Positions 1 to 57,492 of a stretch of 64,000 bases of DNA are shown here, one piece after another (position 1 is the first letter of the stretch; each line of letters opens with the position of its first letter). The notes under the pieces are model-generated. The model was not told the DNA's origin, ran no database searches, and saw nothing but the letters and a program-made list of their open reading frames with translations. The position numbers and the translations under genes are program-made. Source of the stretch: Alopecurus myosuroides (lineage: Eukaryota > Streptophyta > Magnoliopsida > Poales > Poaceae). The stretch covers positions 183,767,958 through 183,831,957 of the forward strand of contig CM054062.1 of the NCBI GenBank assembly GCA_028641055.1. Reading direction: 5' to 3'.

Positions 1-2
1 AA

Positions 3-19707: not shown

Positions 19708-19708
19708 G

Positions 19709-19720
19709 GCTCTGATACCA
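19709..19720 (-). other. PBS of Copia-B (initiator-Met tRNA)
   Basis: Minus-strand TGGTATCAGAGC two bases from the LTR end and directly before the gag ATG. Confidence 0.9.
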
Positions 19721-19722
19721 AA

Positions 19723-19841: not shown

Positions 19842-19868
19842 TTTTTGAGACTTATATAACTTTATTGA

Positions 19869-22800: not shown

Positions 22801-23994
22801 CCCGTTCCTTGATCTCGGAATTGTCAGAGCACTGAGAGCCATCCTCGCGGATCAACGATTTGATCTTGTTCGTACGCCGTCTAGCGGATGCTCGTGCATG
22901 GAAGAACGCAGTATTGCGGTCCCCCTCCTTCAGCCACTCAACGCGCGAGCGTTGACGTGCCATGGTTTCTTCCCTCTCGAAGAGTTCGCAAAGCTCTTTC
23001 TCAATCACCTTTGGTTCCTCTTGATTTTCTTCCCATGGCGCCAACCGAAGGAATTTCAGCCGTTTCTCCCTCTTGCGAATTTCCTTGGCTACTCGGCCAA
23101 AGGTGTCTCGGCTCCACCGGCCCAGCGAGACAGCCACCTTGTGCAAAGTGGCCCAAGTCGAGCCCAGCGTCGCCAGTCCGCTGGACGAGTCCATCCAGGC
23201 CTGCTCCATGACCCGCTGATAATCAGGAGAGCGTAGCCAGGCTGCCTCGAATTTGAATCCCATCTGTATCGGTCTGGTACTGACAGGCTCGCTGTTTTCT
23301 GCAGACTAACATGGATGGCATAGTGATCCGATGTGGTAGTGATCATGTTCTCCACCGCCACATCATCAAAGAGCTGCATGAAATCTCCATTCGCAACTGC
23401 ACGATCCAGTCGTACTCTGACATTCCGATCCCCCTCCTGCCTGTTGGTCCATGTAAACATGGGGCCAGAATAGCCCAAGTCAATCAACCCACACACCTCC
23501 AGGCATTCCTTGAACAATCGCATTTGAGTTTCCGAACGATCATTTGAGCCATAATGCTCCTCCTGATAGAGCACCTCATTGAAATCCCCACAACATATCC
23601 ACGGTCCATTCCACTGTGTACGGAGTCTTCTCAAGAGGTCCCAAAATTCATGGCGGTTCTCACGATGAGGCTCACCATAAACGAAAGTGGCGCTCCATTC
23701 AATACCGGTCTCATCTGTGACCATAACGTCAATACAATTAGCATTGCATCCCCGCAGTGAGACTGTGAATGGTTGTCGCCAATACAGCACAAGGCCACCA
23801 CTCTGGCCCTCGCTACTAACACCCACACTGTTGTTGTATCCCAAAGACCACATCAACTGTTGGGCTCTCTTATCCTTCATCTTCGTCTCCGAAAGAAAAA
23901 GGATCGCGGGTCGGTATTTCTTGACAAGCCATTTAAGCTCGCCCACAGTCGAGTCCGACCCCAAACCTCGACTGTTCCAGCCTACAAGAATCAT
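19869..23994 (-). pseudogene. LINE ORF2: endonuclease, reverse transcriptase, RNase H (broken)
   Basis: ATG at 23994 opens MILVGWNSRGLG, the APE-type endonuclease, with LSETK, CGDFNEV and SDHYAI. The RT follows: [48 protein letters not shown] and the active site FADDS. A zf-RVT finger near 20700 (CVFC...H...C) and a C-terminal RNase H (VNVDEA, ALTLRRAV, DSLSVI) end the frame at 19869. Breaks: a frameshift near 23255, a second at an eight-T run (about 22602-22610), a stop after FWQAPKP (21261) and a TAG at 20823. The family nicks DNA and primes cDNA synthesis at the nick. Confidence 0.9.
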
Positions 23995-33206: not shown

Positions 33207-34037
33207 TATCGGGTTCTACCCCCGAGTAGGGGTAAGATAGGTGAGAAATGGAGTTCAAGGCATTATTTACCGAGTTCGGCCGTACCGAGTTGGTACGGGC
33301 CGGATAGGATGATGCCCAGCCGGGTAGGGCGCTATCCGGCAGGGAGAACAAGAGACCAAGGAAGGATTCGAGTATCTGTCTGGGTCAGCCGAGTAGCACT
33401 TGGGTGATCCGGATAGAGAAGGAGTTGTTCTACTCGGAGGCAAAGTCAATGGAGCCGTTGAGGTGAATCTTGCGTATCCAGGAGCCGTACAGGCGTGCGG
33501 TTCAACTTACTAGGTATGTGGTAATGCATATCCCTACGTGGGTACAATGAGGTATGGGCAATGGCATGTCTTGTCTCTGACAAGGGGGACAGGACATGTC
33601 AGCGACCAACCGCGGAGACTTTCGGCAACTCTGTCAGCAAAGACACGGAGGAGTGCGCTGCTGCACAGTGTGGAGTCGTCTAGTCGGTACTTTTATCTGT
33701 AAAATAGTGGGTGGACACTAGTATATAAGGTGGCTCTCCCCACTCCTGCGCGAGGGTCGCTCGATCATTCATTCTGAGGTTTGTCTTAGCTACTCACAGA
33801 GAGAAAGAAACAGGGAGAGAGGAACTCTTGTACTCGGCATATACTTATACAGAGAGAGAGAGAGGCAGGAGTAGGGGTGTTACCTCCACACAAGGGCCCC
33901 GAACCTGGGTCGATTGTGTTGTTTGTAGTGTTCTCAGCGCGCCAGTTTGGCGTGCGATCCCTCCCCGGATACCTAAAGCGTCCACCGGCCCCAATCTTTA
34001 GCCATCCTATGGCATCTATCTTCTCCACACCACGACA
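33207..34037 (+). mobile_element. Solo LTR related to Gypsy-2 (831 bp)
   Basis: Starts TATCGGGTTCTACCCC (TG changed to TA) and ends CCACACCACGACA, clearly related to the Gypsy-2 LTR, with TSD gggat on both sides (33202-33206 and 34038-34042). A TATA box (tatataag) is at 33722-33729. It keeps the in-frame ATG (34009-34011) that in Gypsy-2 starts gag inside the LTR. It has four TACTCGG/CCGAGTA copies. Confidence 0.93.
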
Positions 34038-34042: not shown

Positions 34043-34246
34043 TGAAACACTGAAAGGAATAAGGAATCTCTTTCCTATTGTGGATTGGACGTAACAATAC
34101 GTTTACCACATGGTTAAGACCCCATGGCTGAAGTGACTGACAAATTCACACAATGTGTGAGATGAACAGAACTTCAAGTACAAGCAACTTGAAAAAGTGA
34201 ATTGGTCAATGGCGGTTACGAAACACCACGAGATGGTTCTCATGAT
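34043..34246 (-). other. LARD internal region between two Gypsy insertions
   Basis: About 200 bp of non-coding LARD internal DNA separating the solo LTR from Gypsy-2. Its end (34242-34246, atgat) is the Gypsy-2 target duplication. Confidence 0.7.
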
Positions 34247-35145
34247 TGTCGGGGGGTTACCCCCGAGTAGGGTAAAGACAGGTGGTAAAGGCAGCTTACA
34301 GAAGAGAGGTTTGGTCGAGTAGCCGACTACCTGGTACTCGGTACCCGGTCGACTGCTACTCGGTCTCACCTCAAGATGACCAGAAGGAGATATCAATCAA
34401 GTTCTATCCTTTCGAGTAGAAGGGTTGGCCCGAGTACAATTGGCGGGAACAATTGGCGGGAACCTACTCGGGCCAGAAAGTCAAAGGAGCCGTTCTGACA
34501 CAGGATCCCGCGTATCCTGGGTCCGTACTTGGCAGCATTCGAACTACTGTTCACCTGGGACCGGCCTGCCTGACAGTGACAGCATGGAAGCAGGTGGTGA
34601 CAGGATAAGGGGGCCTACTCTGTGCCTAGGTACAGTGATACCAGTCTGTCCCCTAGTTTTGCCCAACGACTTTACAGAAGCAGCCAAGGTTAGGAACCAA
34701 AGCTGTCAGCGGGTACTCGGAGAAAGGACGATGTGCACACTATGTCGACACTTGTCTAGATTTGGACGTATCCGGCTGGGCACCGTGTATATAAGGTGCC
34801 CCGCCGCCTCCTGCGCGAGGCACGCTAACAGTGGCTCACTGGAAACCCTAGAAACCCTAAGTTCTAGACCTAGCTCTACTCGGAGAAGAGAGAGAGGCTA
34901 CTCGGTAGCGATATCATTTGTACTGTGGCTACTCGGAGAGACATCGTAATACATAGAGAAAGGCAGGAGTAGGGGTTTTACCTCCTCACGAGGGCCCTGA
35001 ACCTGGGTATATCGCGTTGTTTGTGTTGTGTGGATCTCACCTCACGCGGCTATTCGTCGCGTGATCCCTCCCCGGACACCTCCAGCGTCCATCGTCCCCA
35101 CATCTTTAGCCATCCCATGGCATCTGCCGTGACACCACCACGACA
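34247..35145 (+). repeat. 5' LTR of Gypsy-2 (899 bp)
   Basis: TGTCGGGGGGTTACCCCC to CACCACGACA. TATA box tatataag at 34788-34795. It contains nine TACTCGG/CCGAGTA copies (34263, 34335, 34357, 34430, 34465, 34714, 34877, 34899, 34930). The gag ATG at 35117 lies in its last 29 bases. Confidence 0.97.
34788..34795 (+). promoter_or_regulatory. TATA box of the Gypsy-2 5' LTR
   Basis: tatataag in gtgtatataaggtgcc, about 350 bp before the LTR end. The same segment is conserved in the related solo LTR (33722-33729) and in the 3' LTR (49353-49360). Confidence 0.8.
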
Positions 35146-38100
35146 GTTGGCGCCCACCGTGGGGCAACCAGCGGCGCTGGCTGGAGTTTCTGTTCGGACG
35201 GGATCTTCATCAGCGGAGCGCGTAGTTTGTGGCCTTGTCCACAGATTCGGCTCCTTCGACTTCGTCACCGACAACGCCGGCTGTTTCGGCGGCATGGCCA
35301 TGCCCGAGGGCGGCTCGGTGATCTCCTTCGGCTCGCATCTCGTCTACGTCGCCACCGTCGCCAACAGCGCCTACCCCGAGCTGGTGCATGACGCGGAGGA
35401 TCCTCCCGCGGTGGTTGCTGCTCGCGGAAGGCCTGCATGTAGCTCTGCACGCTGCGCTGAGGTGATGGTGACGGGCTTGGCGGCAAACACTGGCGCAGCC
35501 GCTACTGGCGCTGCGGCCGTCGTCGAGGAGGTTGACGACCCGCCTGCTGGTGGCAGGAACCACCGGCCCTACGAGAAGGAGAGCAACTTGCCGCCTTCCA
35601 CGTCTACGGTCATCCCCGCGTCTGCTGCGCGAACTGGTATGCCCACTCCCACCGACGTTGAGCTCCTAGCCGCGAGGGAGCAGCTCGAGCGGCAACGCCA
35701 GGAGCTGCTTGCCGAGCAGGCGGAGTTGGAAAAGATCAGGCTTGAGCTGAGTCTAGACCAGCTCGAGTACAACAAGGCTCACGGCTTCACGCCGGTCGCC
35801 AGGAGGCCCAGCAGAGTAGGCGCTACGCGGCGCAACCTGGGTGCCGAGATGGCGACAGTTGCGGAGGAGCCCGCGCAGTCCGCCACCGCGAACACCTTCA
35901 CAAGGCCAAGGTACAGCACACCCGCCAAGACGCTCAGAGCTGCGCAGGCCGTGGCTGCCGAGTTGCCGCGCCTAGATGGAGAGGCGCGTCTCAGGCAGCA
36001 GGAGAGGCTCAATGAGTTGGTGCTGGAGGCCGCCAGGCAGAACGAGGAGTTCCGGAAGGCCAACCCGGGAGCTGGAGCTTCGCAGGTGGTTCACTCGCAC
36101 GCGGCTAGATCTAACGATCAGGCCTCGTCTCCGCATCCTAGCCGCGAGAAGAGCCGCAGCGGGCGTTCGGGTAGAGACAGGCAAATGCAGGTGTATGACC
36201 CGGCTGCTGCCGCGAAACAGGTTGCTGTGCCGCAGCAGCCCGGGCAGGAACACAACGCTGCAAGAGCAGGCTCTCAAGCCCATCAAGCTCAAAGCCGTGC
36301 CCGAGAAGCCGCGCGTCCGGGTACTTCTCGGCAACCCGCGGCTCAGCCTACTCGGCAGAGGCAGCAGCCGCGTCCAGTGGCACCAGTCGCCAACCCGGTG
36401 GAGCAGCCCGCAGCTATGCAGGTGGATAGGTATGATGATGGCTACTCGGCTATGGAGATGGCTGGTTATGATATTCATGACCGTGTTGGTGAGCGCGTGT
36501 TGGCGCCTGGAGATGCAAGGCACCAGCTGGACCGTATCAGCTTGTCGGCGCGGCTTGAGAGCACGGGTCCTCCTGGCCCCGAGTGCTTTGGCCCGCGCAT
36601 CATGAACGAGCCTTCCGTGAAGGGCTTCCAGCTCGCAAGAGGCACCAAGAGCTACAATGGTAGCACCAAGCCCGAAGATTGGCTCAATGATTACGTCACC
36701 GCGGTCCACATTGCGGGTGGCAACAGGAGATGGGCAGTGCGGTACGTCCCGCAGATGCTAGAGGGTCCAGCTCGCACTTGGCTCAACAACTTGCCCAAGC
36801 ACAGCATAAATTGCTGGCTGGATTTCTCGGACGCCTTCGTCAGCAACTTCACCAGCACCTACAAGAGGCCGAATAGGCCACAGCAGCTTTCGGCTTGCAG
36901 GCAGCGAGAAGACGAGACGGACCGCGAGTACCTTACTCGGTGGAGCACCTTGAGGAACACCTGTGAGGGTGTGAATGAGGCACAGGCCATCACTTGGTTT
37001 GCGCAGGGTTGCCGACATGGCAGCATGCTTTGGCAAAGATTGCAGAGGGAGATGCCGAACACCCTGGCCGAGACCATCAAGATTGCGGATCAATACGCAC
37101 TCGGTGATCCTACTCAGCCACTGATGGACTCCACGGAGCCGAGAAGAAACTTCAACAGCAGCAAGCGCAACGAGTTCCGCAACAAGCGCCGAGTAGATAC
37201 TCGGTATGACCCTGAGGAGGTGAATGCAGTGAATGTCGGAGGCGGTGGTGGCCAAAGGCAGAAACCTGCTGGAGCCTACGGGCAGAACCAGAACCAGGGC
37301 CAAGGCAACAAGAAACCGTTCCGCACTGCGCAGCCGGGTAGCGGGAACTCCGAGCAGCCGAAGAAGTTTGTCTTCGACGACATGAAGGATGGCCCATGCA
37401 GCTTTCACACTCATCATCCCTCGAGGCCTGCTAATCACACTACTCGGCAGTGCGAGTGGTGGGATGTGATCAAGAGTGATGGCTTGCCTCCTCCTCCTCC
37501 CCTGCCAGCCGCCAATGCTACTGTTCAGCCTACTCGCGCGCCCGCAGCTCGGCCGCCAGTGTACCCAAGAAGAGAGAATGTCAACCAGGTGGCTTTAGGA
37601 GCTAACCGGAACTTCAACAACGAGAGATACCGCAACAACAACAACAACTACAACCGCAACAACAACAACAACAGAGGCAACAACAACTATCAGGGCAACA
37701 ACAACAACAACAACAACAATGGCAACAATGGGGGCAATGGCTCCAACCAGTACCAAGAGCACCATGAGAGCTATATGATCTTCACTTCTGAGGCAGTCGA
37801 CAAGCAGTCACAGCACAGGCGGGCCATGGAGGTCAACGCAGTGATTCCTGCTGTCCCTCACTACATGTATTGGTGTGACCAGGAGATCAGGTGGACTCGG
37901 GCAGATCACCCCAAGGTGATGCCCAATCCGGGTACTTATGCCTTGGTGCTGGATCCTACCTTCCTGGGCCCCGAGAAGAATGTGAGGTTCAGCAAGGTGC
38001 TGATCGACAACGGCAGCAGCATCAACATCGTGTACAAGGACACACTCGAGAAGCTTGGCCTGGCCGAGAACATGATGCTGCCCAGCAAGACCACCTTCCA

Positions 38101-38587
38101 TGGCATTGTGCCCGGGATCTCATGCAACCCGATTGGCCGAGTGTGGATTGATGTGCTATTCGGTACTCGGGAGAACTGCCGCACAGAGCGCCTGCAGTTT
38201 GAAGTGGTGGATCATCAGAGCCCCTATCATGCTCTACTCGGCAGGCCTGCTCTGAGCAAGTTCATGGCCTCTACACATGTGGCTTATCTGAAGATGAAGA
38301 TCCCTGGTCCCAATGGCATCATCACCATCTCGGGAGATTACAAGAAGTCCATGGAGTGTGCCTCTGCTAGCTCCCAGCTGGCGGAATCGATGGTGATTGC
38401 TGCCGAGAAGAAGAAGATGTACGAGGTGGGGGCCATGGCTCAGTCCGCACAAGCTGGCGCACAAGGTGTGCCGAGTACCCAGCATGGTACAGCTTTCCAA
38501 GCTGCCAAGGAGACCAAGACAGTCCAGGTTGACCCCGAGTTCCCGGAGCGCGTGGCCATCATTGGTGCCGGGTTGGCGGAGAAATAG
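35117..38587 (+). CDS. Gag-protease of Gypsy-2
   Basis: 1156 codons from the ATG in the LTR (MASAVTPPRQ). The frame reads through the LTR end and PBS (LAPTVG). A predicted coiled coil (about 35665-35760, ELLAAREQLERQRQELLAEQ) precedes a Q/R/A-rich region. The retrotransposon gag capsid domain is at about 36690-37110 (WLNDYVTAVHIAG, ARTWLNNLP, LTRWSTLRNTCEGV). A C/H-rich segment (CSFHTHHP, near 37397) and a long Asn-rich tract (about 37610-37745) follow. The aspartic protease has FSKVLIDNGSSINIVY (D codon near 38005), a variant DNG triad like the DGG of Gypsy-1. The frame ends at a TAG before ESALIHFL, after which pol continues in the same frame. Confidence 0.92.
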   Translation: MASAVTPPRQLAPTVGQPAALAGVSVRTGSSSAERVVCGLVHRFGSFDFVTDNAGCFGGMAMPEGGSVISFGSHLVYVATVANSAYPELVHDAEDPPAVVAARGRPACSSARCAEVMVTGLAANTGAAATGAAAVVEEVDDPPAGGRNHRPYEKESNLPPSTSTVIPASAARTGMPTPTDVELLAAREQLERQRQELLAEQAELEKIRLELSLDQLEYNKAHGFTPVARRPSRVGATRRNLGAEMATVAEEPAQSATANTFTRPRYSTPAKTLRAAQAVAAELPRLDGEARLRQQERLNELVLEAARQNEEFRKANPGAGASQVVHSHAARSNDQASSPHPSREKSRSGRSGRDRQMQVYDPAAAAKQVAVPQQPGQEHNAARAGSQAHQAQSRAREAARPGTSRQPAAQPTRQRQQPRPVAPVANPVEQPAAMQVDRYDDGYSAMEMAGYDIHDRVGERVLAPGDARHQLDRISLSARLESTGPPGPECFGPRIMNEPSVKGFQLARGTKSYNGSTKPEDWLNDYVTAVHIAGGNRRWAVRYVPQMLEGPARTWLNNLPKHSINCWLDFSDAFVSNFTSTYKRPNRPQQLSACRQREDETDREYLTRWSTLRNTCEGVNEAQAITWFAQGCRHGSMLWQRLQREMPNTLAETIKIADQYALGDPTQPLMDSTEPRRNFNSSKRNEFRNKRRVDTRYDPEEVNAVNVGGGGGQRQKPAGAYGQNQNQGQGNKKPFRTAQPGSGNSEQPKKFVFDDMKDGPCSFHTHHPSRPANHTTRQCEWWDVIKSDGLPPPPPLPAANATVQPTRAPAARPPVYPRRENVNQVALGANRNFNNERYRNNNNNYNRNNNNNRGNNNYQGNNNNNNNNGNNGGNGSNQYQEHHESYMIFTSEAVDKQSQHRRAMEVNAVIPAVPHYMYWCDQEIRWTRADHPKVMPNPGTYALVLDPTFLGPEKNVRFSKVLIDNGSSINIVYKDTLEKLGLAENMMLPSKTTFHGIVPGISCNPIGRVWIDVLFGTRENCRTERLQFEVVDHQSPYHALLGRPALSKFMASTHVAYLKMKIPGPNGIITISGDYKKSMECASASSQLAESMVIAAEKKKMYEVGAMAQSAQAGAQGVPSTQHGTAFQAAKETKTVQVDPEFPERVAIIGAGLAEK
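35148..35165 (+). other. Primer binding site of Gypsy-2
   Basis: TGGCGCCCACCGTGGGGC two bases after the LTR, identical to Gypsy-1. It is translated as part of gag. The cognate tRNA is not identified. Confidence 0.85.
37610..37745 (+). repeat. Asn-rich AAC-repeat tract in Gypsy-2 gag
   Basis: Imperfect AAC/CAA repeats encode runs of asparagine with interspersed R, Y and G, just upstream of the protease. It is a low-complexity linker and a likely site of slippage. Confidence 0.85.
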
Positions 38588-41500
38588 GAAAGCGCGCTCA
38601 TCCACTTCCTCCGTGAGAATCGGGACGTGTTCGCCTGGACCAATGAAGATCTACCAGGAGTCCCGAGGGAGTTGGTTGAGCACTCTTTGCATGTGCGTCC
38701 TGACGCCAAGCCCGTGAAGCAGGCTTTGCGCCGTTTCGGGGATGAGAGAAGGAAGGCCATCGGTGATCAAATCACCAAGCTGCTGATCAGTAACTTCATC
38801 ATGGAAGTGCTGCACCCGGACTGGTTAGCCAACCCGGTCATGGTCGAGAAGAAAAATGAAGATCCCAAGGCTGCCACTGCATGGCGCATGTGCGTCGACT
38901 ACACCGACTTGAACAAGGCATGCCCCAAGGATCCTTTCCCGCTACCTCGCATCGATCAGGTGATCGATTCCACTGCCGGCTGTGAACTGTTGTCTTTCAT
39001 AGATGCCTACTCTGGTTTCCACCAGATTGCACTCAACCCTGCTGATCAAATAAAGACTGCTTTCATTACCCCGTACGGGGCTTATTGCTATCGTGTCATG
39101 TGTTTTGGCTTGAGGAATGCGGGTGCAACCTATCAGAGATGCATGCAGAAATGCTTGCACGACCAGCTCGGCAAGAATGTGCAGGTGTACGTAGATGACA
39201 TTGTCATCAAAACGAATAAAACACATACTCTGCTTGCCGACCTGGAGGAAACCTTTGCTAACCTACGCAAGTACAAAATGAAACTGAATCCGAGTAAGTG
39301 CACCTTTGGTGTACCAGCTGGAAAGCTACTCGGTTTTCTGGTTTCTAGTCGGGGCATTGAAGCCAATCCTTCTAAGATAAAAGCTATTGAAAGCATGTCT
39401 TTGCCGAGATCACTGAAAGATGTGCAAAAGTTCACGGGTTGTCTGGCATCTCTGAGCCGCTTTCTGGGCCGAATGGGCGAGAAGGCTCTGCCTCTGTACC
39501 AGCTGATGAAGAAAAGCGACAAGTTTGTCTGGACTCCGCAAGCGGACGTGGCATTCAATGAGCTGAAAGCAATGCTGGCTAGCGCTCCCGTCTTGGCTAG
39601 TCCGCTACCCAAGGAGCCTATGCTACTGTACATTGCTGCGACTAACCGAGTAGTCAGCGTGGTGATAGTGGTGGAGCGAGAAGAAGAAGGCAAGAGTGTG
39701 CAGCGCCCAGTCTATTATCTCAGTGAAGTGCTGTCCAGTTCCAAGCAAAACTACCCGCATTACCAGAAGATGACATATGGTGTGTACCTGGGCGCCAGGA
39801 AGCTGAAACATTATTTCCAGGAGCACCCCATCACTGTTGTGAGTTCTGCTCCCATCTCGGATATCATGGGTAACAAGGAGGCGAGTGGCAGAGTAGCCAA
39901 GTGGGCGATCGAGCTAGCCGCGTACGCTCCCGCGTATACGAGAAGAGAAGCAATCAAGTCTCAGGTCTTGGCGGAATTCCTTGTGGACTGGGCCGAGATG
40001 CAGTATGAACCTCCTGCTCCAGTTTCCAACTATTGGAAAATGCACTTTGATGGCTCAAGGGTGAAAGAAGGCCTTGGTGCTGGCGTTGTGCTTACATCAC
40101 CCAAGCGGGATCAGCTCAAGTATGTGTTGCAGATTCATTTCAAGGCATCCAACAATGTAGCCGAGTACGAGGCAGTGGTGCATGGTTTGCGAGTAGCAAA
40201 GGAGGTTGGCGTACAACGCATCATATGTTATGGTGACTCAGATCTAGTGGTGCAGCAAGTCTCAGGTACCTGGGATGCTTTGGATGCCAACATGGCATCG
40301 TATCGCTTCCTGGTGCAGTCTATGACTGGGTTTTTCGAAGGCTGTGAGTTCCAGCACATTCACCGAGCAGAGAACGAAGCAGCAGACGAGCTATCCAAGT
40401 TGGGATCTTCTCGGCAGTCCATCCCGGCAGGGATTTCCTTGGAGCATTTGAGGAGGCCATCCATCAAGCCTTCCCCCAACTCGGAATCCATCTTTGTTCC
40501 CTCTCTGCCAAGTGAAGAATCTGACCCAATGGAGATTGACTGGGAGAGTGCTGCAGGGAACCCGGGGACTGCCGTCCTCTACTCGGGGACTGCCACTCCC
40601 TACTCGGGGACTGCCACTCCCTACCCGGGGACTGCCGTCCTCTACTCGGGGACTGCCACTCCCTACTCGGGGACTGCCACTCCCTACCCGGGGACTGCCA
40701 TTCCCTACTCGGGGACTGCCACTCCGTACTCGGGGACTGCCGCCCTCAACCCAGAAGCTGTTGCATTCATTGAAGAAGTTCTTGCCAATCGGTCTGGGCT
40801 GCAAAGAAGCGCTCCTACTCCTCCTGTGCAACCACAAGAGCCTGCCCTAATGGAAATGGACGAACCAGTGTTTCCCATGCGGGAGACACCGAGTTGGGCA
40901 ATGCCCATATTATCCTTTCTAAGGGACGGTACTTTACCTGAAGATGAGGTGACTGCGAGGCAGATTCAGAGGAGGTCCAAGGGCTACACCATAGTCCGAG
41001 ATGTGCTGCACAAGAGAAGTGCCACCGGCGTGCTGCAACGCTGTGTGAGCCCAGAGGAGGGAGAAGAAATCCTGGTGGAGATACATCAAGGGGAATGTGG
41101 GCATCACGCCTCATCTCGGGCTTTGGTCAAGAAAGCTTTTCGGCATGGCTTTTACTGGCTCACTGCACTGCAACAAGCTGAAGATATTGTGAGGAAGTGC
41201 GCCGGCTGCCAGATGTTCGCAAGTAAGATTCACATGCCAGCTTCCGAGTTGAAAACAATTCCTATCACATGGCCATTCGCTGTTTGGTGCTTAGACATGG
41301 TTGGTCCCTTCAAGCCGGCTAAAGGCAATATGACACATATCTTGGTCATGGTGGACAAGTTCACCAAGTGGATCGAGGTGAAACCTATTCGGAAATGCGA
41401 TGGGGTCACAGCTGTGAAGTTCGTGAAGGATGTGATCATGAGATATGGCTACCCGCACAGTATCATCACCGACAACGGCACCAACTTTGCAGAGGGGGCA

Positions 41501-42160
41501 ATGGTGCGATTCTGCAGAGATAAGCATATCCGACTAGACGTTGCGTCAGTCGCGCACCCTGCCTCCAATGGGCAAGTTGAGAGAGCAAATGGGATGGTAC
41601 TGGCAGGCATCAAGCCAAGGCTGATTGAGCCACTGCTGAAAACACCTGGGTGTTGGCTAGAAGAGTTGCCAGCGGTATTGTGGAGTCTAAGGACTACCCC
41701 TAACCGGTCAACCGGCTACACGCCATTCTTCTTGGTATACGGGGCTGAGGCCGTGTTGCCAATAGACTTAGAGCATGACTCCCCCCGAGTAGCCCTCTAC
41801 ACTGAGGTGGAGGCGAGAGAAGCTCGAGAAGACGACGTTGACCTGCTTGAAGAAGCAAGAGAGCTGACTCTGTCACGTTTGGCTATCTACCAGCAAAACC
41901 TGCGGCGTTATCATAGCCGAAAGGTGAACCCAAGGGTTTTCCGAGAAGGAGACATGGTCCTTAGGCTTGTGCAGCGCACAGCCGGGATGCACAAGTTGTC
42001 TCCTCCATGGGAAGGGCCCTTCATTGTGAGCAAAGCGCTGCACAATGATGCGTACTACCTTGTAGATGTGCGCCCATCGCAGGCGAACAGGGCAGATAAA
42101 GCTGGAGAGGAAACCAAGCGCCCTTGGAATGTAGCTCTACTTCGTCGTTTTCATTCGTGA
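38588..42160 (+). CDS. RT-RNase H-plant RNase H-integrase part of Gypsy-2 polyprotein
   Basis: Open for 1190 codons directly after the TAG at 38585-38587. Whether it is made by readthrough or silenced by that stop is open. RT has FIDAYSGFHQ (about 38995) and YVDD (39187-39198). The connected RNase H domain ends near HYFQEHPITVVSS. The second, plant-type RNase H spans about 40040-40410 (MHFDGSRVKEG, NNVAEYEA, GDSDLVVQQVSG). A linker with nine 21-bp repeats follows. Integrase has the zinc finger GECGHHASS...CAGC (41094-41215), then LDMVGPF, ITDNGTNF and GQVERANG. The C-terminal LSPPWEGPFIV resembles the chromatin-interacting tail of Gypsy integrases. Only the upstream TAG mars it. Confidence 0.92.
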   Translation, partial: ESALIHFLRENRDVFAWTNEDLPGVPRELVEHSLHVRPDAKPVKQALRRFGDERRKAIGDQITKLLISNFIMEVLHPDWLANPVMVEKKNEDPKAATAWRMCVDYTDLNKACPKDPFPLPRIDQVIDSTAGCELLSFIDAYSGFHQIALNPADQIKTAFITPYGAYCYRVMCFGLRNAGATYQRCMQKCLHDQLGKNVQVYVDDIVIKTNKTHTLLADLEETFANLRKYKMKLNPSKCTFGVPAGKLLGFLVSSRGIEANPSKIKAIESMSLPRSLKDVQKFTGCLASLSRFLGRMGEKALPLYQLMKKSDKFVWTPQADVAFNELKAMLASAPVLASPLPKEPMLLYIAATNRVVSVVIVVEREEEGKSVQRPVYYLSEVLSSSKQNYPHYQKMTYGVYLGARKLKHYFQEHPITVVSSAPISDIMGNKEASGRVAKWAIELAAYAPAYTRREAIKSQVLAEFLVDWAEMQYEPPAPVSNYWKMHFDGSRVKEGLGAGVVLTSPKRDQLKYVLQIHFKASNNVAEYEAVVHGLRVAKEVGVQRIICYGDSDLVVQQVSGTWDALDANMASYRFLVQSMTGFFEGCEFQHIHRAENEAADELSKLGSSRQSIPAGISLEHLRRPSIKPSPNSESIFVPSLPSEESDPMEIDWESAAGNPGTAVLYSGTATPYSGTATPYPGTAVLYSGTATPYSGTATPYPGTAIPYSGTATPYSGTAALNPEAVAFIEEVLANRSGLQRSAPTPPVQPQEPALMEMDEPVFPMRETPSWAMPILSFLRDGTLPEDEVTARQIQRRSKGYTIVRDVLHKRSATGVLQRCVSPEEGEEILVEIHQGECGHHASSRALVKKAFRHGFYWLTALQQAEDIVRKCAGCQMFASKIHMPASELKTIPITWPFAVWCLDMVGPFKPAKGNMTHILVMVDKFTKWIEVKPIRKCDGVTAVKFVKDVIMRYGYPHSIITDNGTNFAEGAMVRFCRDKHIRLDVASVAHPASNGQVERANGMVLAGIKPRLIEPLLKTPGCWLEELPAVLWSLRTTPNRSTGYTPFFLVYGAEAVLPIDLEHDSPRVALYTEVEAREAREDDVDLLEEARELTLSRLAIYQQNLRRYHSRKVNPRVFREGDMVLRLVQRTAGMHKLSPPWEGPFIVSKALHNDAYYLVDVRPSQANRADKAGEETKRPWNVALLRRFHS
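40559..40747 (+). repeat. Nine 21-bp tandem repeats in the RNase H-integrase linker
   Basis: Nine in-frame units of type tactcggggactgccactcc encode YSGTATP or NPGTAVL variants. Variants recur every three units, so there is a 63-bp higher-order period. Each unit contains cggggactgcc; the Gypsy-2 polypurine tract region reads cggggactgc. Confidence 0.93.
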
Positions 42161-42832
42161 GCAAAGATGTGTATGTACCCTCTTATCCGAGTTGAAATTC
42201 TACTCTGCAATCTGAAATTGTTCTCGGGGACTGCCCTCGTCCAAATTTGCTCTAAGTGTTTTTACTCGGCTTGGTCCTTTGTCTATTCGCTTGCTCCACT
42301 TCAGAACTCATAAGTGCATTGAGTACTGTGTTTAAACCTATATGCCAACTCTTCGACTCTGCTGCTGTCCGAAACCCGGCTTCATGGCGAGCAAGAGAAC
42401 AAGCAAAAGGTCAATGAGCACACGAAAATCGCTAAGGAAGAAAGAGTGCAGGAACCGAGTAGATTGTCGGTTACTTTTGTTCCCTGTTTTCGTCTTCTCG
42501 GCTAAGTGGTGGGCTGTGTTACCATGATTGTTTCTAGCGGCTAAGTATTTGCAGCCCTACTACTTGATTCTTGTGACTCGAATACCAAACAAGCGACAAG
42601 TCGCGGGTAGAGCAGAGATGAAAAGATAGGGTGAATAAGAAATGCAACTCGGGGACTCGCATGGAAACGCAACCCGGCATTGAGCCAGTGTTGTTCAAAT
42701 TGATTAATGTCGAAATAAACAGAGTGGGCATAAAAACTGAGTAGCAAGCAAAATAAAGATAGTCTATTACATCTGCTCCCGGCATCCCGGGGATCTGATA
42801 AGTGTTCGAGTTGAAAAAGATTGCAGGTGGCT
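42161..42832. other. Spacer between convergent sense and antisense genes of Gypsy-2
   Basis: Non-coding 672 bp between the two stop codons; it should hold both polyadenylation regions. It contains a further ctcggggactgcc (42225) and actcggggact (42652), and TACTCGG or its complement at 42263 and 42455. Confidence 0.7.
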
Positions 42833-45800
42833 TCAAGATGAGGAGGCAGTGTTCTCGGCGCTGGCCTTGGCTGCTGTTTCTTCGGCGGCAGTCTTGGCAG
42901 CAGTCTCTTCGGTGGCAGCCGTTCCCTCGGTGCTGGCATGGGTGGCATCCGTTCCCGTCTGGACGGTGGTGGATTCCTTCATCTCGGCATCACCCTGGGT
43001 GGCCGCCTGCTCAGAGGTGGCCGTGGCCACCGAAACGAGTACTGGAGCCGAGGAGGAGCCTGAAGCTTGGCCAGGAGGGGGCACCGTGTCGTCGAGAGCA
43101 GCACCTGAGGAGGTGCCAAAGTCAAGTGCGGCGGTGTCGATGTGGGCGTACTCGTCCTCATCGCTACTCGCGACGGCGACGTTCTTCCCCTTCCCGGCCT
43201 TGCCCTCGGGAGATTCGAAGAAGCCTTCCAAGTCGGATTCTACCGCGCCGTCCTCTTCTTCTTCCTCTTCGTACTCGGTGTCGGGCTAGGGGAGGCCATC
43301 AATGAAGATCTCCGTCTCAGCGCACTCCGCGACCTCGTAGGCGATCTGCTTACGTGTGGCCACGCAGTCGGGATCTACCTCCCACTTGGAATTATTGCGC
43401 TTCCCGCGGATGAGCTGCATGTTGAGGTTCTCATACCAGGATGCTATGCAGAGAAGCATCACGTCCGCACCGGCCCGGGCTCCCGAAGCACGCCACTTCT
43501 TCAACTCCTTCTTCACATTCTTCAGCTTGAAGGCTAGGCCCTTCATGGTGGTTGGCCGATCATCATGAGGCCAAAACAGCCTATGGAGCTCAAAGCCCTC
43601 GTGCACCAGGTCAATTCCGACGCCAGCCAGCTGTTCGAAATAGTCCTTGAGCACCAGCAAGCTGTCCTCGATCCCGGCTCTGGTATCTGCTGCCTCACCT
43701 TTTGCAAGGCGAGCTGCTTGGGCCTTGGCCACCTTAGGCGCAGAAGGGGAATCAAGATGAGGCCAGATTTCTGAAATAGCATGGGGTAACTTCAGAACCG
43801 GGAAGAGAAGAACCGAGTAGAGGAAAACCGAGAAGAAATACGACCGAGAAGAAAAGAAGCAGCGAAGAAAAGACTCACCGGACAGTTCGTTGCGCAGCCG
43901 CTGCAACTGAGTCCTCCAGGACTCCTCGTTAGAAATGTGCTTTTCTTGGATCAGGCGCAAGGAATCCATCTGAGCGAAGAGATCAGCGTTGGTCTTCTTT
44001 AAAGTTTCGCATTCTTGCTCAAGGGCCCTTTCCTTGGCTTTGAAAGTGGTCTCGGCCTTGGCCTTCTCGGCAATGGCTCTGTCCCTCTCGGCGCCAATCT
44101 TGACGGCATCCTAGAGTGCCTTTTGCAACTGGAGTTGCAGCTTCTCGGTCTCCGTGGTGTGGTCCTTCAACAGCTCAAGGGCCTGGTCGGACAGCTGCTT
44201 CTGCACCTCTGCTGGCTTGACACAATCTTGGTGTGCCTCAGCAAACAACTTGTAATCTTCTGCGAAGAGATAGATGAGGTTAGCAGAGGAGCAGAGAAGA
44301 GACAGATTCAAAGTCAAACCGAGTAAACAACAAACTTACCTTCCAGCCTTTTGATGGTGGCCTCGGAGTTCTCCACGAAGCTGCGGCATTTCTCATGTTC
44401 GTCTGCTAAGGCCTTCAGTTTTTCTGCAGAGAAGGAGAGTTTAGCGCATAAGAAAGCATAAGCGAGCGTAAACAAAAACGCATGAATCGCACAGCTAAAA
44501 GCGTACCTTGCACTTCAGTCAGCTGTTGGGTGCTGTCCTTGGCGTTCTTGCTGGCTGCCTCTGCAACTGCCTTTTCCTTCTCTAGAGCAGCAATTCGCCT
44601 CCTGGCGATAGAGTGGTTCCAGAGAAGATGGCGGTATAAATTGGTCCGCTTCAGGACGCTATCCTGAGAAGCGAGAAGAAGCAAGTTAGAAAAAGCAGAG
44701 TAGATTCAGCCCGAGTAGGAGGCTACTCGGAGAGTATCCACCCACTCGACCCGAATCTCGGGGACTGGGGGTGATGGTAAGAAAGAAGAAGGGCGAGTAG
44801 AAGAGAAGAAATTTCAACTCGGAAAAGGCAAGAAGGACTTACCGCGTAGGACTGCTCGATGTCCTCGGCATTCTTGCGATGCAAGAACATCTTGGCTGCG
44901 AGTGTCGCGGTCTCGGTGGAGACGGACATGGGATTGCGTCCCAGGTCAACCTTGTTCCAGTCCACGCGCATGTGGTCGATGCCGCCAAGGCTAAGACCGT
45001 GCCATTTATCCACGCCAAGAATCTTGCTATCCCATTTGGCGTCGATGAAGCCAACGGTGTCCAATACCTGTTCAAGACCCTTGGAAGTTATTGGTTTGTC
45101 TTGGACTCCGCGAGAAGCGATGTTGACAGACTGGGGTTGGCTTGGATCTGGAGGAGGGGAGTTCATGGCTACAACCTTCCTTCCCCTCTGGATAGCTAAA
45201 GCTTTGTCCTTGGGAGGGAAGCCGATTGAGTGCTGTTGGCTAACCTCAATCATGTACTCCGGGTAGCAGGGCTGGCCAGCAGCGCGAGCGTCTGCAGAGA
45301 GCGCAGCAGGAATCGGGCCGGACTCGTGGATCACGAGCGCTCCGCCTGAGGATGTACTCTGGTCTCTGGCCCGCTTCTTCGTTTGCTCCTTCTCAACCTT
45401 TTGCTTCTCGGGATCCTCAGTAGTCTTCCCGTCAGTCTTGGCCTTCGCCTTCTCGGCGACTGCCTTCTCGGCAGCTTGCTTCTCGGCCTTCTTCTGCTCA
45501 GCCCTGGCTTTCTTCTGCTCAGCCTTGGCCTTCTCAGCAGCTTCCTTATCAGCAGCTTCCTTATCAGCAGTCTCCTTCTCGGCCTTGGCCTTCTCAGCGG
45601 CTTCCTTCTCAGCTGCCCTTCTGTCAACCTCACCCCTCAGAGCATCCAGGGCGCGTTGCCTGGTTACTCGCCCGGCAGGAGGGCTGGATGTATCCTTGGT
45701 TTTCGGCGGCGAGGAGGAGGTTGGCGGTGTAGGGCCTTGCGCAGTTGGAGGTGTAGGGCCTTGCGCAGTTGGAGGTGTAGGGCCTTGCGCAGTTGGTGGT

Positions 45801-48119
45801 GTAGGGCCTTGCGCAGTTGGTGGTGTAGGGCCTTGCGCAGTTGGTGGCGCCGCAGATCCGTCGCCTTGCGCAGCTCCTGGCTGGGCGCTACCCGGTGTCA
45901 CGCCCGTTTGCACGCTGCTCAATGGATAAGCAGTGGCATCCGTGGCGGTGGTGTCTCCTACTCGCTGCGCGGCAGCGAGGCTCTCTTGTGCAGCAGCCCC
46001 TGTGGCGGGCTGCTCTTGTTCTGCTTCAGGCCGCTCGGCAGCGGTGTTATCTTGCATATTTTGGTCTTGGTTCTCCTCGGCATTGCTAGCCGGAGGAGAA
46101 GGGGGTCTCTCATCGTGGACGGCAGTGTCCTGTGCTGCTAGTTCTGACGCTGCGCCTTGTGCTGGATTGGCAGCAGCAGCATTGGCGTCGTGGTCCTCAT
46201 CATCATCGTCCAGATTGACCAGAGGTACTGGTTTTTCCTTGGCTTGGTCGGACGCGAGAGCTGCATTCGCGTCCATAGGAGGACTGCAGAGAAAGAGAAA
46301 TCGCAAATTAGAAGAAGATTGGGGAAAATAGCACAGCGCGAGAAGGGAGGCGACCGAGAAGAGGGCTTACGCGGTGGTGCATTTGAGCTCTCGTCTGGAC
46401 CTCTTCGCGACCACCTTCTTATCGGCGGGCTTCCTCTTCTTGGCAGGAGGCGCTGGTGCCCCGCTACCAGCCCGTTTGCGGGTCTCAGGAGCGGCGATGG
46501 ACAGGGGCTTGACGACTAGGGGCGCATCGCCCTCGTCCTCGTCTTCGTCCTCGTCGTCCTTGTCCGCGGCAACTTCATCTGAGAATCCAAGAGAAAAGAG
46601 GAAAGAATCAGAAACAGCACACGAGGGATTGATGATTCTCGGAAACAAACAGAATGAAAGTATAGTTACCATCAAAGTCCTCGTCGGACCAGGTGCGAAG
46701 AGCGTCGCGCTTATCAGTGATGGGGGAGCGAGTAGGGTTGGTCTGCTCCGTGGCATCGAAAGAGGGCACATCATCCTCCTCACGATCAGGAAACCAGTTG
46801 CCCTCAAAAACCTCGCAACTCTCGATTATCTGGCGAGTAAGGACCTGAAAAGCAGAGAAGGATCACAGACTAACCGAGTACCAGGAAGGAATCCTACTCG
46901 GATAGGCGTGCAGGTACAAAGCACACAAAGCCTAGGCAGTTTACTAAGCATTCTACCCGGATAGGCGTGCAAACACAAAGCATACCAAGCCTAAGCATGT
47001 TTGCTGGGAGGTATTACTCGGAAGGGCGTGCAGGTATAAAGCACATCAAGCCTAAGAATCATTCCCGAGTAGGCTACCCGGCAAGGCGTGCAAACACAAA
47101 GCATACTAAGCCTAAAGCAATTCGGCTAGATGTCCTACTCGGAACGCAAGGCAATTGCTAGTTGATGCAAGAAGGAGAAGTTATCTACTCGGAAAGTGTA
47201 TGCAAAGAGCAAAGTAAGGAAGGCGTACCCGCTCAATTGGCTTTGTGCGGCTGTACGGGACGAACCCGTATTGCCAGTGGTCGCCAAGGCTTGTCGTCAG
47301 GATGTTCCTTGCGTGCCAGGGGACATCGATGTTGTCGATCTCGATGGTGGTTGTTCTGGTGCAGTCGCGGGGCCCTCCCATGTAACACATGAGATGGCAC
47401 CGCTCCTGCAAGGGCAGTACTCGGCGCTGGATCCAGCAGGCCACCGGGTCGTCGTTTTTGAGGCCCTCCGCCTTCAGCCAGCCGAGTCGATTCTCCATCT
47501 CGATGGCGTCATCATCGTTGACGGGCTTGTCCTTCCAGTACATCCCGATTGGAGCGCGATTGCACCAAACGGGCAAGTTGATTCTATCGTTCACGGGGGC
47601 TCCTTCCGCGGCGGCAACGTTCCTGACGTAAAGGAACGTCTTCTGCCATAGCTTGACGGAGTCCAGCCCCTTGATGCGGGGGTGGTTCGTCCCGGACCGC
47701 TGCACCATCATGGCGCAGCCGGTGTCGGTGGCGCGGGCAACGCCCGCGGAGTCCTTCTTCCCGGTAGATTGCTGGCGCAGATGGAAGTACCTGAGCCACG
47801 TCTCCCACGTGGGCCGGATGCCGAGGAAGGCCTCGCAGACCACGGCGTGGTACGCGAGGAAGACGACGGCGTTCGGCGGCAGGTGGTGCATCTGGATGCC
47901 GAAGTGATTGAGGAATTTCCTCATGAAATCGGAGGCGGGTAGTCCGAACCCGCGCTCGAAATGCGCCAGGAAGACGACGCGCTCTCCCTCCCGCGGGGAC
48001 GGCATGATTTCATCGTCCGGCGCCCGGCACTCCACGCCGGGAGGGACTCGCCTGGTATTGACGAGCCAGGCGCAATCTTCCGCGGTGACGGAGGAGCCGG
48101 CCCAGCCGGATTTGGCCAT
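42833..48119 (-). CDS. Eight-exon antisense gene of Gypsy-2 (PF04195-like N-terminal domain)
   Basis: ATG at 48119 (MAKSGWAGSS). Exons 48119-47229, 46844-46670, 46578-46371, 46283-44843, 44663-44507, 44423-44340, 44259-43879 and 43770-42833 join in phase with GT-AG borders at all seven introns, giving 1425 codons including the stop. Exon 1 resembles the putative gypsy-type transposon domain PF04195 (FERGFGLPASDFMRKFLNHF, WETWLRYFHLR). Exons 2-3 are acidic then basic (KKRKPADKKVVAKR, a likely nuclear signal). Exon 4 has PPTAQGPT repeats and an A/E/K-rich coiled-coil region. Exons 5-7 are helical; exon 8 ends Ala/Glu-rich. In-frame TAGs at 44111-44113 and 43286-43288 interrupt this copy. Function unknown. 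Confidence 0.8.
45720..45846 (-). repeat. Five 24-bp tandem repeats in exon 4 of the antisense gene
   Basis: The plus-strand unit ggtgtagggccttgcgcag plus ttgg(a/t) is repeated five times and encodes PPTAQGPT on the minus strand. A proline-rich spacer. Confidence 0.9.
46895..47150. repeat. About four 60-bp tandem repeats in antisense intron 1
   Basis: Units start at 46895, 46954, 47015, 47075 and 47136 (partial) with tactcgg or tacccgg followed by an aggcgtgca block and aaagca..aagccta. Two unit types alternate (actcgg..gcaggta and acccgg..gcaaaca), a 120-bp higher-order period. Confidence 0.88.
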
Positions 48120-48285
48120 TGTGGCGAGTAGGGAAGATGGAAGATTTCGAGGGGAGTTGGTTGGTGGATTGAGCCCGCGGCGGCGCGAGAGCTTGCGCGG
48201 CGGCGGAGAGCTCGGTGGCGGAGAAGAGCAGGAGACGAAGAAGGAATCGTGCGAGGGAAGGGGAAAAGGAAGTTACCGGCGGGGG

Positions 48286-48293
48286 TATTTATA
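48286..48293 (-). promoter_or_regulatory. TATA box of the antisense gene
   Basis: Minus-strand TATAAATA, about 170 bp upstream of the antisense ATG, in GC-rich surroundings. A start site near 48260 would leave a leader of about 140 nt. TACTCGG copies at 48627, 48656, 48706 and 48719 lie upstream. Confidence 0.65.
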
Positions 48294-48798
48294 TCCCCTC
48301 CGCGAGTTTACCGTTACCGTCTCGGGAGTGGGATCGATTGTGGCGTGTGGTGGATCCTGTGGCCGGCTAGAAACGCACACAAGCGCCGGGTGCGCGCGTA
48401 ATGGCCACAGTTGATCCCACCACCGAATCGTGGCCTATAACTGCGCTTGATGGGACATGACGGCCGGTGGGCCCATTGCGTGAAAACTGGACGCATGGCA
48501 GGTCGTGTCCTGGGCAACGAAACGACAAGGTCGTGGATGCTTGACACGTGTGCAGTTGCTGCGCGAAGGGCTGGACTGTGCTCTGTGCTGCAGAGGCTCA
48601 ATCTGAGAAATTTCTCTAAGTCTTTTTACTCGGCTACATAGTAGAAAGCAAGCGCTACTCGGAAGAGAGGAAACTCAAGGTACTTTCCAGATAGCTACTC
48701 GGAGGACCTACTCGGCATCTTGAGGTTCAAGGGCTGAGATGCAAAGGCTGGTTTAAAGCTGGCAGAGCCTAGTGAACGAGTTCGCAAGACTCAACCAG

Positions 48799-48811
48799 CT
48801 TCGGGGACTGC
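48799..48811 (+). other. Polypurine-tract region of Gypsy-2
   Basis: cttcggggactgc directly precedes the 3' LTR. It is not a pure purine run, and its core cggggactgc recurs in the pol repeats and the 3' spacer. Confidence 0.6.
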
Positions 48812-49710
48812 TGTCGGGGGGTTACCCCCGAGTAGGGTAAAGACAGGTGGTAAAGGCAGCTTACAGAAGAGAGGTTTGGTCGAGTAGCCGACTACCTGGT
48901 ACTCGGTACCCGGTCGACTGCTACTCGGTCTCACCTCAAGATGACCAGAAGGAGATATCAATCAAGTTCTATCCTTTCGAGTAGAAGGGTTGGCCCGAGT
49001 ACAATTGGCGGGAACAATTGGCGGGAACCTACTCGGGCCAGAAAGTCAAAGGAGCCGTTCTGACACAGGATCCCGCGTATCCTGGGTCCGTACTTGGCAG
49101 CATTCGAACTACTGTTCACCTGGGACCGGCCTGCCTGACAGTGACAGCATGGAAGCAGGCGGTGACAGGATAAGGGGGCCTACTCTGTGCCTAGGTACAG
49201 TGATACCAGTCTGTCCCCTAGTTTTGCCCAACGACTTTACAGAAGCAGCCAAGGTTAGGAACCAAAGCTGTCAGCGGGTACTCGGAGAAAGGACGATGTG
49301 CACACTATGTCGACACTTGTCTAGATTTGGACGTATCCGGCTGGGCACCGTGTATATAAGGTGCCCCGCCGCCTCCTGCGCGAGGCACGCTAACAGTGGC
49401 TCACTGGAAACCCTAGAAACCCTAAGTTCTAGACCTAGCTCTACTCGGAGAAGAGAGAGAGGCTACTCGGTAGCGATATCATTTGTACTGTGGCTACTCG
49501 GAGAGACATCGTAATACATAGAGAAAGGCAGGAGTAGGGGTTTTACCTCCTCACGAGGGCCCTGAACCTGGGTATATCGCGTTGTTTGTGTTGTGTGGAT
49601 CTCACCTCACGCGGCTATTCGTCGCGTGATCCCTTCCCGGACACCTCCAGCGTCCATCGTCCCCACATCTTTAGCCATCCCATGGCATCTGCCGTGACAC
49701 CACCACGACA
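48812..49710 (+). repeat. 3' LTR of Gypsy-2 (899 bp)
   Basis: Identical to the 5' LTR except two positions: gcaggcggtg here for gcaggtggtg, and gatcccttcc here for gatccctccc. It is followed by TSD atgat. Confidence 0.97.
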
Positions 49711-49715
49711 ATGAT

Positions 49716-54964: not shown

Positions 54965-55845
54965 ATGGATAGATTTGTGCTAAAACGAACAGCTCCACAA
55001 GAGTTTGATGCAGCAGAATCGTCAAGGCCACTTAGACTTAGACAAGATAATCAGAGATCTTCATCAAGACCACCAACGCCTAACGTTTCCAGGCCACCAA
55101 CACCTTCAGTTCCAGCAGATATTGATCTAGATGGGCTTCCATATGATCCAGCCGATCGAAAAAGAATATCAGATTACACTCGAGATCCTCAGAAGCAAGA
55201 TGACATAAGGCGAATATATTTAACTAGAGGTCCTTACAGGAAGCAACCAGGCTTCAAGTATCCGCAAAAGCGCATCGCAACCACGAAGATTTAATCCAGA
55301 TTGGTTTAAGGAATATCATGGCTGGCTAGAGTACAGTGAGAAGTTAGATAGGGTATTTTGCTTGTGTTGCTACCTGTTCAGAGATTGCATTGATGGCCAA
55401 GGTGGAAATGACGCATTTGTTGTTGATGGTTGGTCTAGTTGGAACAAGAAAAAAATACTAGATAGTCATGTGGGTGAGGTCAATAGCTTTCATAATGTGG
55501 TTGTTAAAAGATGTGATGCTCTAATGAATCAATACCAGTCCATTAGGGCTGCCCTGCACAAGCAAACTGATATGACAAAAAGGCAAAATCGTATTCGATT
55601 GAATACTTCAGTTGAATCTGCTAGATACCTCATACATCAAGGCTTAGCTTTTCGCGGTAATGATGAATTAGAGTAATCAAAAAATAAGAGAAACTTTAAA
55701 GAGTTGATACGGACATTGGCAAATCAAAATGAGGAAGTAAGGAAGTTAATCAATAATGCTCCAGAAAATTGCAAATGGACTTGTCCGGACATTCAGAAAG
55801 AAATTGTGAGTTATTATGCAAAGGTAAGCAGTCCTATTTTTATTT

Positions 55846-55890
<45 letters not shown>

Positions 55891-57492
55891 AGGTGTAATC
55901 TAAATGGCATGGCCTCTTGTATTTTACAGATAACATTGAATTGTATTCTTGAAGAAATTGGTGGAGATGTTTTCAGCTTGTTGATTGACGAGGCTTCTGA
56001 TGTATCCGACAAAGAACAAATGGTTGTAGTTTTGAGGTATGTGAAAAAGCAAGGACTAATCATGGAACGGCTAGTTGGAGTTGTACATGTGAAGGAAACT
56101 TCTGCAGCGTGTCTCAAATCATATCTTCAAAAATTATTCATTGATATTGGTCTAACTTTAAAGCAAGTTCGAGGTCAATGTTATGATGGGACAAGAAATA
56201 TGCGTGGTGAGTTCAATGGTTTGAAAGATAAAATTCTAGAAGAGAATAGTTCGGCATATTATGTGCATTGCTTTGCTCATCAGCTCCAGTTGGTTATAGT
56301 AGAAGTGTCAAAAAGGAATGATGATATTGCTGATTTCTTTTACATGATCTCTCTTCTCTTCAATGTGGTTGGATCCTCTTGCAAAAGAAAGGACATGATT
56401 AAAGAGATTCATCGAGAGAATGTATTAAAAGCCATAAGTAGTGGAAAAATTAGTACCGGCACAGGGCTAAATCAAGATCAATCACTTCAGAGGGCGGGAG
56501 ATACTCGTTGGGGTTCACACTACAGAACTCTCTCGGGCCTTGTTCAGTTGTTCCCATCAGTTATTACTGTTTTGAAATATGTATCAAAAGAAGGAAGAAG
56601 AAGTTCCAAGAAAACTGAAGCACGTGGCCTTCTATACTATTTTGGAACCTTTGACTTTGTGTTCTATTTGCATATGATGTTACATATATTAGGGAGTGCC
56701 AATACTTTGTCTCAGGCTTTGCAACAGAAGGATCAGGACATCTTGAATGACATGTCATGTGTTCAGTCAATAAGGAATGATTTGCAACAGCTAATAGATA
56801 ATGGATGGGAATCACTTCTGGAGAAGGTATATTCATTTTGTGAAGAGCATGACATTCTGAAACTAAACATGCAGGATGAGTATGTAGATCGGCATAATAC
56901 ACGGAAAAAAACCAACATCACAAACCTTCATCATTACCAAATAGAGTGTCTTAACTCTGTTATTGATTGGCAACTTCGGGAGTTTGATGATAGATTCAAT
57001 GAAGTAAATTCAGCATTTCTTATTCACATGGCATCATTCAGCCCAAAAGACTCATTCGCTGCTTTTAACACCGAGAGCGTACTAAAGCTAGCTGAGTTTT
57101 ATCCTAATGATTTCGATTCATCAAAACTGATGGATCTTGGTCATGAACTTCGCATTTACATTGACAATGTGCGAGCTGACGAACGGTTTGTGAATTTAGA
57201 TGGCATTGCTGATCTTGCCAAACTCTTGGTGGACACTAAGAAGCATCTTTCGTTTCCTTTGGTGTATCAACTTCTAAAATTTGTGTTAATTTTGCCGGTC
57301 GCCACAGCATCAGTGGAGAGATGCTTTTCAGCAATGAATATTGTCAAGAGTATTCTGCGGAATAAAATGGGTGAGAAGTTCATGAGTGATCTTATGATTT
57401 GCTATGTAGAGAAAGATATATTTTCTACCATCATGAATGATGATGTGATTGATTTATTTAAGAAGATTAAGGATCGAGAAAGGAAGCTCTAA
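54965..57492 (+). pseudogene. hAT transposase (TTF-finger/DUF4371 type), inactivated
   Basis: Starts MDRFVLKRTAP. A frameshift near 55285 precedes the TTF-type zinc finger region (RFNPDWFKEYHGWLEYS, CLCCYLF). DUF4371 follows (FVVDGWSSWNKKK, HNVVVKRC). A TAA at 55674-55676 interrupts it. An intron (55824-55929, GT-AG) keeps phase: YYAK joins ITLNCILEEIGGD. The catalytic core includes LLIDEASDVSD, GQCYDGTRNM and HCFAHQLQLV. The C-terminal hAT dimerisation domain (LPVATASVERCFSAMNIVKS) ends near 57492. Plant members of this group resemble zinc finger MYM-type protein 1-like proteins. With one frameshift and one stop this copy is probably dead. A possible 5' leader intron (about 54829-54958) ends tttag before the ATG. 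Confidence 0.88.
55849..55888. repeat. AT dinucleotide microsatellite in the hAT intron
   Basis: About 20 units of TA/AT inside the transposase intron. Confidence 0.93.

Follow-up and report, generated by a model that had tools for sequence, protein, structure and literature searches.

The long terminal repeat (LTR) retrotransposon Gypsy-2 occupies positions 34247 to 49710, plus strand, of a 64-kb window of the Alopecurus myosuroides genome (contig CM054062.1, positions 183,767,958 to 183,831,957; coordinates below are those of this window), and it is saturated with a single heptamer, TACTCGG. We counted 56 copies in the element against 1.96 expected under an order-2 model, with nine in each LTR, in agreement with a first-pass annotation that had reckoned nine per LTR and approximately 55 in all versus about 2 in random sequence. 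The word is selected at the DNA level, and it is almost certainly a DNA recognition word. Its reader is, with a rough probability of 0.55, the protein encoded by the element's own antisense gene, TRP28.

Distribution and shape of the word in Gypsy-2

We compared the count with dinucleotide shuffles, as the first-pass annotation had proposed. One LTR and the interior of Gypsy-2 together contain 47 copies, against a mean of 0.97 and a maximum of 5 in 200 shuffles, in which no 7-mer of any kind was present more than 15 times. The whole window holds 64 copies, a number reached in none of 100 shuffles, whereas the 47.7 kb outside Gypsy-2 and a related solo LTR are at background, with 4 copies versus 3.7 expected.

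The copies are spread over the element. When Gypsy-2 was divided, by our own choice of boundaries, into eight disjoint pieces, TACTCGG was the top 7-mer in five of them, namely, the LTR, pol without its tandem array, 42161 to 44722, 46367 to 47229, and 48120 to 48811. It ranked fourth in the leader and gag piece, after a CAA repeat, 335th in the antisense piece 44723 to 46366, and 196th in the TRP28 exon. There are 10 copies per kb in the LTRs, 5.9 in the other noncoding parts, 2.6 in leader and gag, 3.1 in pol including a 21-bp array (40560 to 40741, plus strand, 6 copies), and 4 copies in about 4.3 kb of antisense frames, so that density drops as protein constraint goes up. The placement of the word in LTRs, presumed antisense introns and spacers, described earlier, holds, with six copies in the presumed antisense intron at 46826 to 47229 (minus strand), which also contains a diverged 121/61-bp repeat. 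The gag-pol frames contain 20 of the 47 copies, on both strands.

The plus strand predominates, as had been noted before, with 33 copies versus 14 on the minus strand (28 versus 14 with the array collapsed, P = 0.044). Such a sense-strand excess might denote an RNA signal acting in packaging, dimerization or small-RNA pairing. However, a packaging signal would require one strand, and the 14 minus-strand copies compare with about half of the 0.97 expected; four of them lie in pol outside the antisense frames. In the related element Gypsy-1 (see below), the sense strand carries 32 of the 54 sites, and no Rfam family was found in the window at gathering thresholds. We therefore consider an RNA signal to be very improbable. 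Close inverted pairs of the word are present at 37189 to 37204, 44711 to 44730, and 46874 to 46901, and several direct pairs are spaced by 21 to 22 bp; such pairs would bear on a dimeric reader, but the numbers are small in both cases.

The word has a defined shape. The base that follows the 47 copies is evenly distributed (13/12/11/11), and the base that precedes them is C in 30 cases, G in 10, T in 6, and A in 1. One-change variants are mostly near background. The two forms expected from CpG decay, TACTTGG (1 copy) and TACTCAG (2 copies), are not enriched, consistent with a young element whose LTRs differ at 2 of 899 positions. Moderate enrichment was found for TACCCGG (10 versus 1.4 expected) and TTCTCGG (23 versus 3.1), and repetitive coding sequence could account for much of the latter excess. 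The sequences flanking TACTCGG represent 40 unrelated contexts, in which the only groupings are the six copies of the pol array, one intronic pair, and one pair that is alike at chance level. Enrichment does not come from expansion of one tandem repeat, the possibility that the first-pass annotation had raised against its own reading, and a tandem-repeat origin was rejected.

Selection on DNA within gag-pol

Synonymous shuffles of the coding sequences gave 0.33 copies on average for the gag frame and 1.07 for the pol frame, compared with 9 and 11 observed. Setting the array aside, gag-pol offers 35 places at which synonymous codons would allow TACTCGG, and 14 of them are filled, against 0.82 expected from codon usage. 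Of 120 same-letter arrangements tested, each with a single CG and with TACTCGG itself by chance among them, the best besides TACTCGG occupies 5 of 32 places. Some sites lie within conserved protein motifs (LLG and AEY in pol, FGTREN in gag). In the five antisense frames, 3 of 17 compatible places are filled. Protein-driven codon choice was rejected by these synonymous-codon tests as the cause of the enrichment, bearing out the earlier proposal that the pressure acts on DNA and not on protein.

The same tests bear on the idea that duplication, slippage or mutational bias spread the word without selection. Some copies did arise in this way, in the 21-bp array and in an intronic repeat (pair 46895/47015). 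Nevertheless, the 40 contexts are unrelated, both the codon-usage and the synonymous-shuffle nulls are far surpassed, and Gypsy-1 has its sites at other places of the homologous gene. Spread without selection is thus extremely improbable.

Related elements in the window use related words

Gypsy-1 is an incomplete Retand element that runs off the edge of the window (1 to 6450, minus strand, right end approximate). Its pol DNA is 64% identical to that of Gypsy-2, and the first 20 bases of the primer binding site region, at 35146 to 35165 (plus strand) in Gypsy-2, are the same in both. It contains one copy of TACTCGG. ACCCGG is the top 6-mer of this element; in the coding frame, AGCCGG and ACTCGG come next, and the three are summarized by A[CG][CT]CGG. 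We found 54 such sites versus 15.9 expected. The pol frame (1654 to 6018, minus strand) holds 33, compared with a mean of 8.6 and a maximum of 18 in 1000 synonymous shuffles, none of which reached 33, and two noncoding pieces hold 16 versus 4.8 and 5 versus 2.2. The edges of the word are sharp, since its first base is enriched for A only and altered forms of the final CGG are never enriched, and the flanks of the sites are alike at chance level (5.2 of 20 bases on average). No gag domain was found with Pfam in the 1455-residue frame of Gypsy-1; gag-less Retand clusters have been reported from grasses (PMC11963269).

When the genes were aligned, 2 of 30 Gypsy-1 sites fell on an A[CG][CT]CGG site of Gypsy-2; conversely, Gypsy-1 has TACTCGG at 1 of 8 alignable Gypsy-2 sites. 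The gag part of this alignment is only 42% identical. So few coinciding sites indicate that each family filled the homologous genes with its own word, mostly at positions not used by the other.

A solo LTR of a related family (33207 to 34037, plus strand, target site duplication [TSD] GGGAT) lies 210 bp upstream of Gypsy-2. It is clearly related to Gypsy-2 only in part (78% identity over 192 bp). It carries four TACTCGG versus 0.12 expected, a number reached in none of 1000 shuffles, and two of the four are at alignment positions common with Gypsy-2, as judged by eye. It also has four copies of TATCCGG, possibly a third variant of the word.

As the Gypsy-1 word shares an A-x-[CT]-CGG core with TACTCGG but has other preferred bases and other positions, word and reader appear to diverge from one family to the next, a specificity based on two elements and one solo LTR, all in one window. 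The core common to both families and the solo LTR would also be expected if one host protein family read it. A host DNA-binding protein, such as a transcription or chromatin factor that the family recruited by accumulating its word, would moreover fit the high density in the LTRs, as for a promoter activator. On the other hand, a promoter factor would require the LTR alone, and the copies throughout gag and pol would be of little gain to it. Related families of one genome favor different words, and the other transposons of the window lack them. A host factor appears unlikely as the reader.

Neither word was in excess in five non-Retand coding frames of the window, among the controls being a hAT transposase frame (DUF4371 and dimerization region, 55828 to 57489) and copia gag and long interspersed nuclear element (LINE) frames (18429 to 24015), nor was either in excess in four other stretches of the window. 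Composition controls comprised 138 pieces of 5.5 kb from viral_contigs loci, which lean to repeats and ACTCGG because they were chosen for TACTCGG triplets. The motif-triplet scan of viral_contigs returned at least 120 loci, and those listed had no match to the pol, TRP28, LTR or post-pol sequence at an E value of 1e-3. Relatives of TRP28 and pol were not found in viral_contigs, those of TRP28 were not found in genome_contigs, and those of the LTR were not found in plasmids. Alignment of pol with genome_contigs yielded two plant-like sequences (NZ_SWBM01000020.1 and JAEKLZ010000381.1), which are plant-type Retand pieces contaminating assemblies deposited under the names Robertmurraya kyonggiensis and Inquilinus limosus, respectively.

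The antisense TRP28 gene as candidate reader

The first-pass annotation had suggested that a protein encoded by the element, perhaps the antisense product, binds the word, and Gypsy-2 does encode an antisense candidate. A match to Transposase_28 (TRP28, PF04195; E = 3e-19) was found with Pfam on the minus strand at 47181 to 48272. The TRP28 exon (47230 to 48119, minus strand) contains one TACTCGG; protein homology stops near 47247. The relatives of TRP28 are at most 43% identical at 60% or more query coverage (best 120 of 126), and the predicted fold of the exon is confident (predicted local distance difference test [pLDDT] 85, predicted template modeling score [pTM] 0.87) but matches no solved structure. 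The gap that separates the start of TRP28 from the 3′ LTR, where an antisense promoter would be expected, contains a cluster of four TACTCGG (48627 to 48715, plus strand). TRP28, which has predicted DNA-binding residues and an unknown function, has been reported from 97% of the clusters of recently active Retand elements (PMC11963269) and from 23% of a broader Retand set (PMC6317226). The antisense product of Grande has been reported to be nuclear (PMC7264820).

Several results weigh against TRP28 as the reader, and against a word of this kind in Retand elements generally. Neither the fold nor the sequence of TRP28 gave a significant match to DNA-binding or VANC proteins in the PDB, BFVD and PDB sequences. 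DUF1985 and DUF287, the domains of VANC, were not among the Pfam families of 22 TRP28 proteins (E values up to 10, with most matches above 0.1 filtered). Two Retand fragments from other plants lack these words. Finally, the words of VANDAL elements, which VANC proteins recognize, are mainly noncoding, often tandem and in one orientation (PMC5735166), whereas those of Gypsy-2 are mostly single, on both strands and in coding sequence too.

Other proteins of the element, such as integrase, gag or the products of further antisense frames, might read the word instead, which could then serve to tether, compact or import the element's DNA or to guide integration toward kin. Further antisense frames are indeed present, in the form of presumed 3′ exons at 42833 to 44110 (two TACTCGG) and a repeat-rich frame at 44723 to 46366 (one TACTCGG), both on the minus strand. 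The solo LTR just upstream of Gypsy-2 would be in keeping with integration near kin, although a single neighboring LTR is no statistic. No known sequence-specific domain was found in these frames; at 0.01, Pfam matched none of the antisense frames other than TRP28. We judge this explanation to be improbable. The repeat-rich frame contains a 24-bp array (45720 to 45847; 5.3 copies, 98% matches) that encodes an AQGPTPPT-like repeat.

Structure and lineage of Gypsy-2

Going by its sequence, Gypsy-2 is a young element of the Retand lineage (Ty3/gypsy, Tat clade). It is flanked by the TSD ATGAT (34242 to 34246 and 49711 to 49715), and its LTRs are at 34247 to 35145 and 48812 to 49710. The gag/protease frame, read from stop to stop with its start inside the LTR, is at 34973 to 38587 (seven TACTCGG on the plus strand and two on the minus strand). 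It is followed by the pol frame at 38588 to 42160, also on the plus strand, with 11 copies, including those of the array. Pfam identified gag, reverse transcriptase (RT), RNase H, a second RNase H, and integrase. The second RNase H (RVT_3, residues 487 to 604 of pol) lies between RT_RNaseH (341 to 446) and rve (896 to 991). An archaeal-type RNase H at that position is a Retand criterion, common to Ogre (PMC6317226). Together with these domains, the 5-bp TSD and the antisense TRP28 gene between pol and the 3′ LTR fit Retand. The LTR of 899 bp falls within the reported Retand range of 315 to 1,194 bp, and the distance from pol to the 3′ LTR (6,651 bp) and the interior (13,666 bp) are slightly above the ranges of 2,933 to 6,566 bp and 7,380 to 12,869 bp (PMC11963269). 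Relatives of pol include proteins of Lolium, Brachypodium, Festuca, rice and wheat, the best of full length at 71% identity, with rice RIRE2 GAG-POL (P0167) among them (best 120 of 2,696); RIRE2 has been assigned to Retand (PMC6317226).

The 21-bp array is located in the linker that joins the second RNase H to integrase, and its product is a YSGTATP-like repeat; pol relatives have different Pro/Gly/Thr-rich repeats at that position. The sequence TTCGGGGACTGC at 48798 to 48811, immediately ahead of the 3′ LTR, recurs in the array with TACTCGGGGACTGC, and Gypsy-1 has similar forms near 195 and 533. The array may have been seeded by a sequence resembling a polypurine tract.

Comparison with known systems and proposed role

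The analogy drawn earlier with the VANC/VANDAL system of Arabidopsis holds in part. In that system, targeting is influenced by the density of the motif, and the words vary between related families (PMC5735166): VANC21 recognizes YAGTATTAY and VANC6 recognizes AGTTGTCC or AGTTGTAC (PMC5735166; PMC10398659). Gypsy-2 is likewise dense in one short word that is rare elsewhere, encodes its own candidate reader, and has a relative with a diverged word at other places, Gypsy-1, in what is a single family pair. The likeness does not extend to arrangement, given the mostly nontandem copies, mixed orientation and coding sites described above. In addition, VANDALs are DNA transposons and Gypsy-2 is an LTR retrotransposon, and VANC carries DUF1985 and DUF287 where Gypsy-2 has the TRP28 gene instead. 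Gypsy-2 resembles the Retand elements described with antisense TRP28 (PMC11963269, PMC6317226, PMC7264820) in gene order, second RNase H and 5-bp TSD. The counts in those papers concern tandem arrays rather than short words scattered through an element, and the portions of them considered here do not mention a saturating word; nor did full-text literature searches give a report of an accumulated short word in Retand elements among the matches listed. Another parallel is found in the iterons of geminiviruses, short iterated words recognized by the virus's own Rep protein that often differ between close relatives (PMC12548392). Iterons sit upstream of the Rep gene, whereas the Gypsy-2 word is dispersed over the element.

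The sharp edges of the word, its free positions, its presence on both strands and in coding and noncoding sequence, its family specificity and its drift suggest, taken together, that it is read as double-stranded DNA over the full length of the element. We propose that a sequence-specific protein would recognize TACTCGG in this form and that the family would have gathered the word by selection throughout, in LTRs, presumed introns and spacers and, by way of synonymous codons, in gag-pol. The reader would most likely be antisense TRP28, the extra gene being the natural candidate. Bound along the element, it could open chromatin or protect it from silencing, including at the LTR and antisense promoters. 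If VANC is taken as a guide (PMC5735166), the simplest role to assume is anti-silencing, and we put it forward tentatively, at somewhat less than even odds, as the main effect of the word, with transcriptional activation of the LTR and antisense promoters as a close alternative. In a more general form, and with similar reserve, Retand elements might possess a self/non-self DNA code, in which each family carries its own word throughout, antisense TRP28 reads it, and the specificity of the reader drifts with the word.

The saturating word offers a ready candidate binding site for antisense TRP28. If the code exists, TRP28 would gain a function, and LTR retrotransposons would have a counterpart of VANC of separate origin. 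If TRP28 is the reader, Gypsy-2 would clearly exemplify selection for a short DNA word within coding sequence, at 14 of the 35 gag-pol places allowed outside the array, and sequence-specific self-recognition would have arisen separately in LTR retrotransposons.

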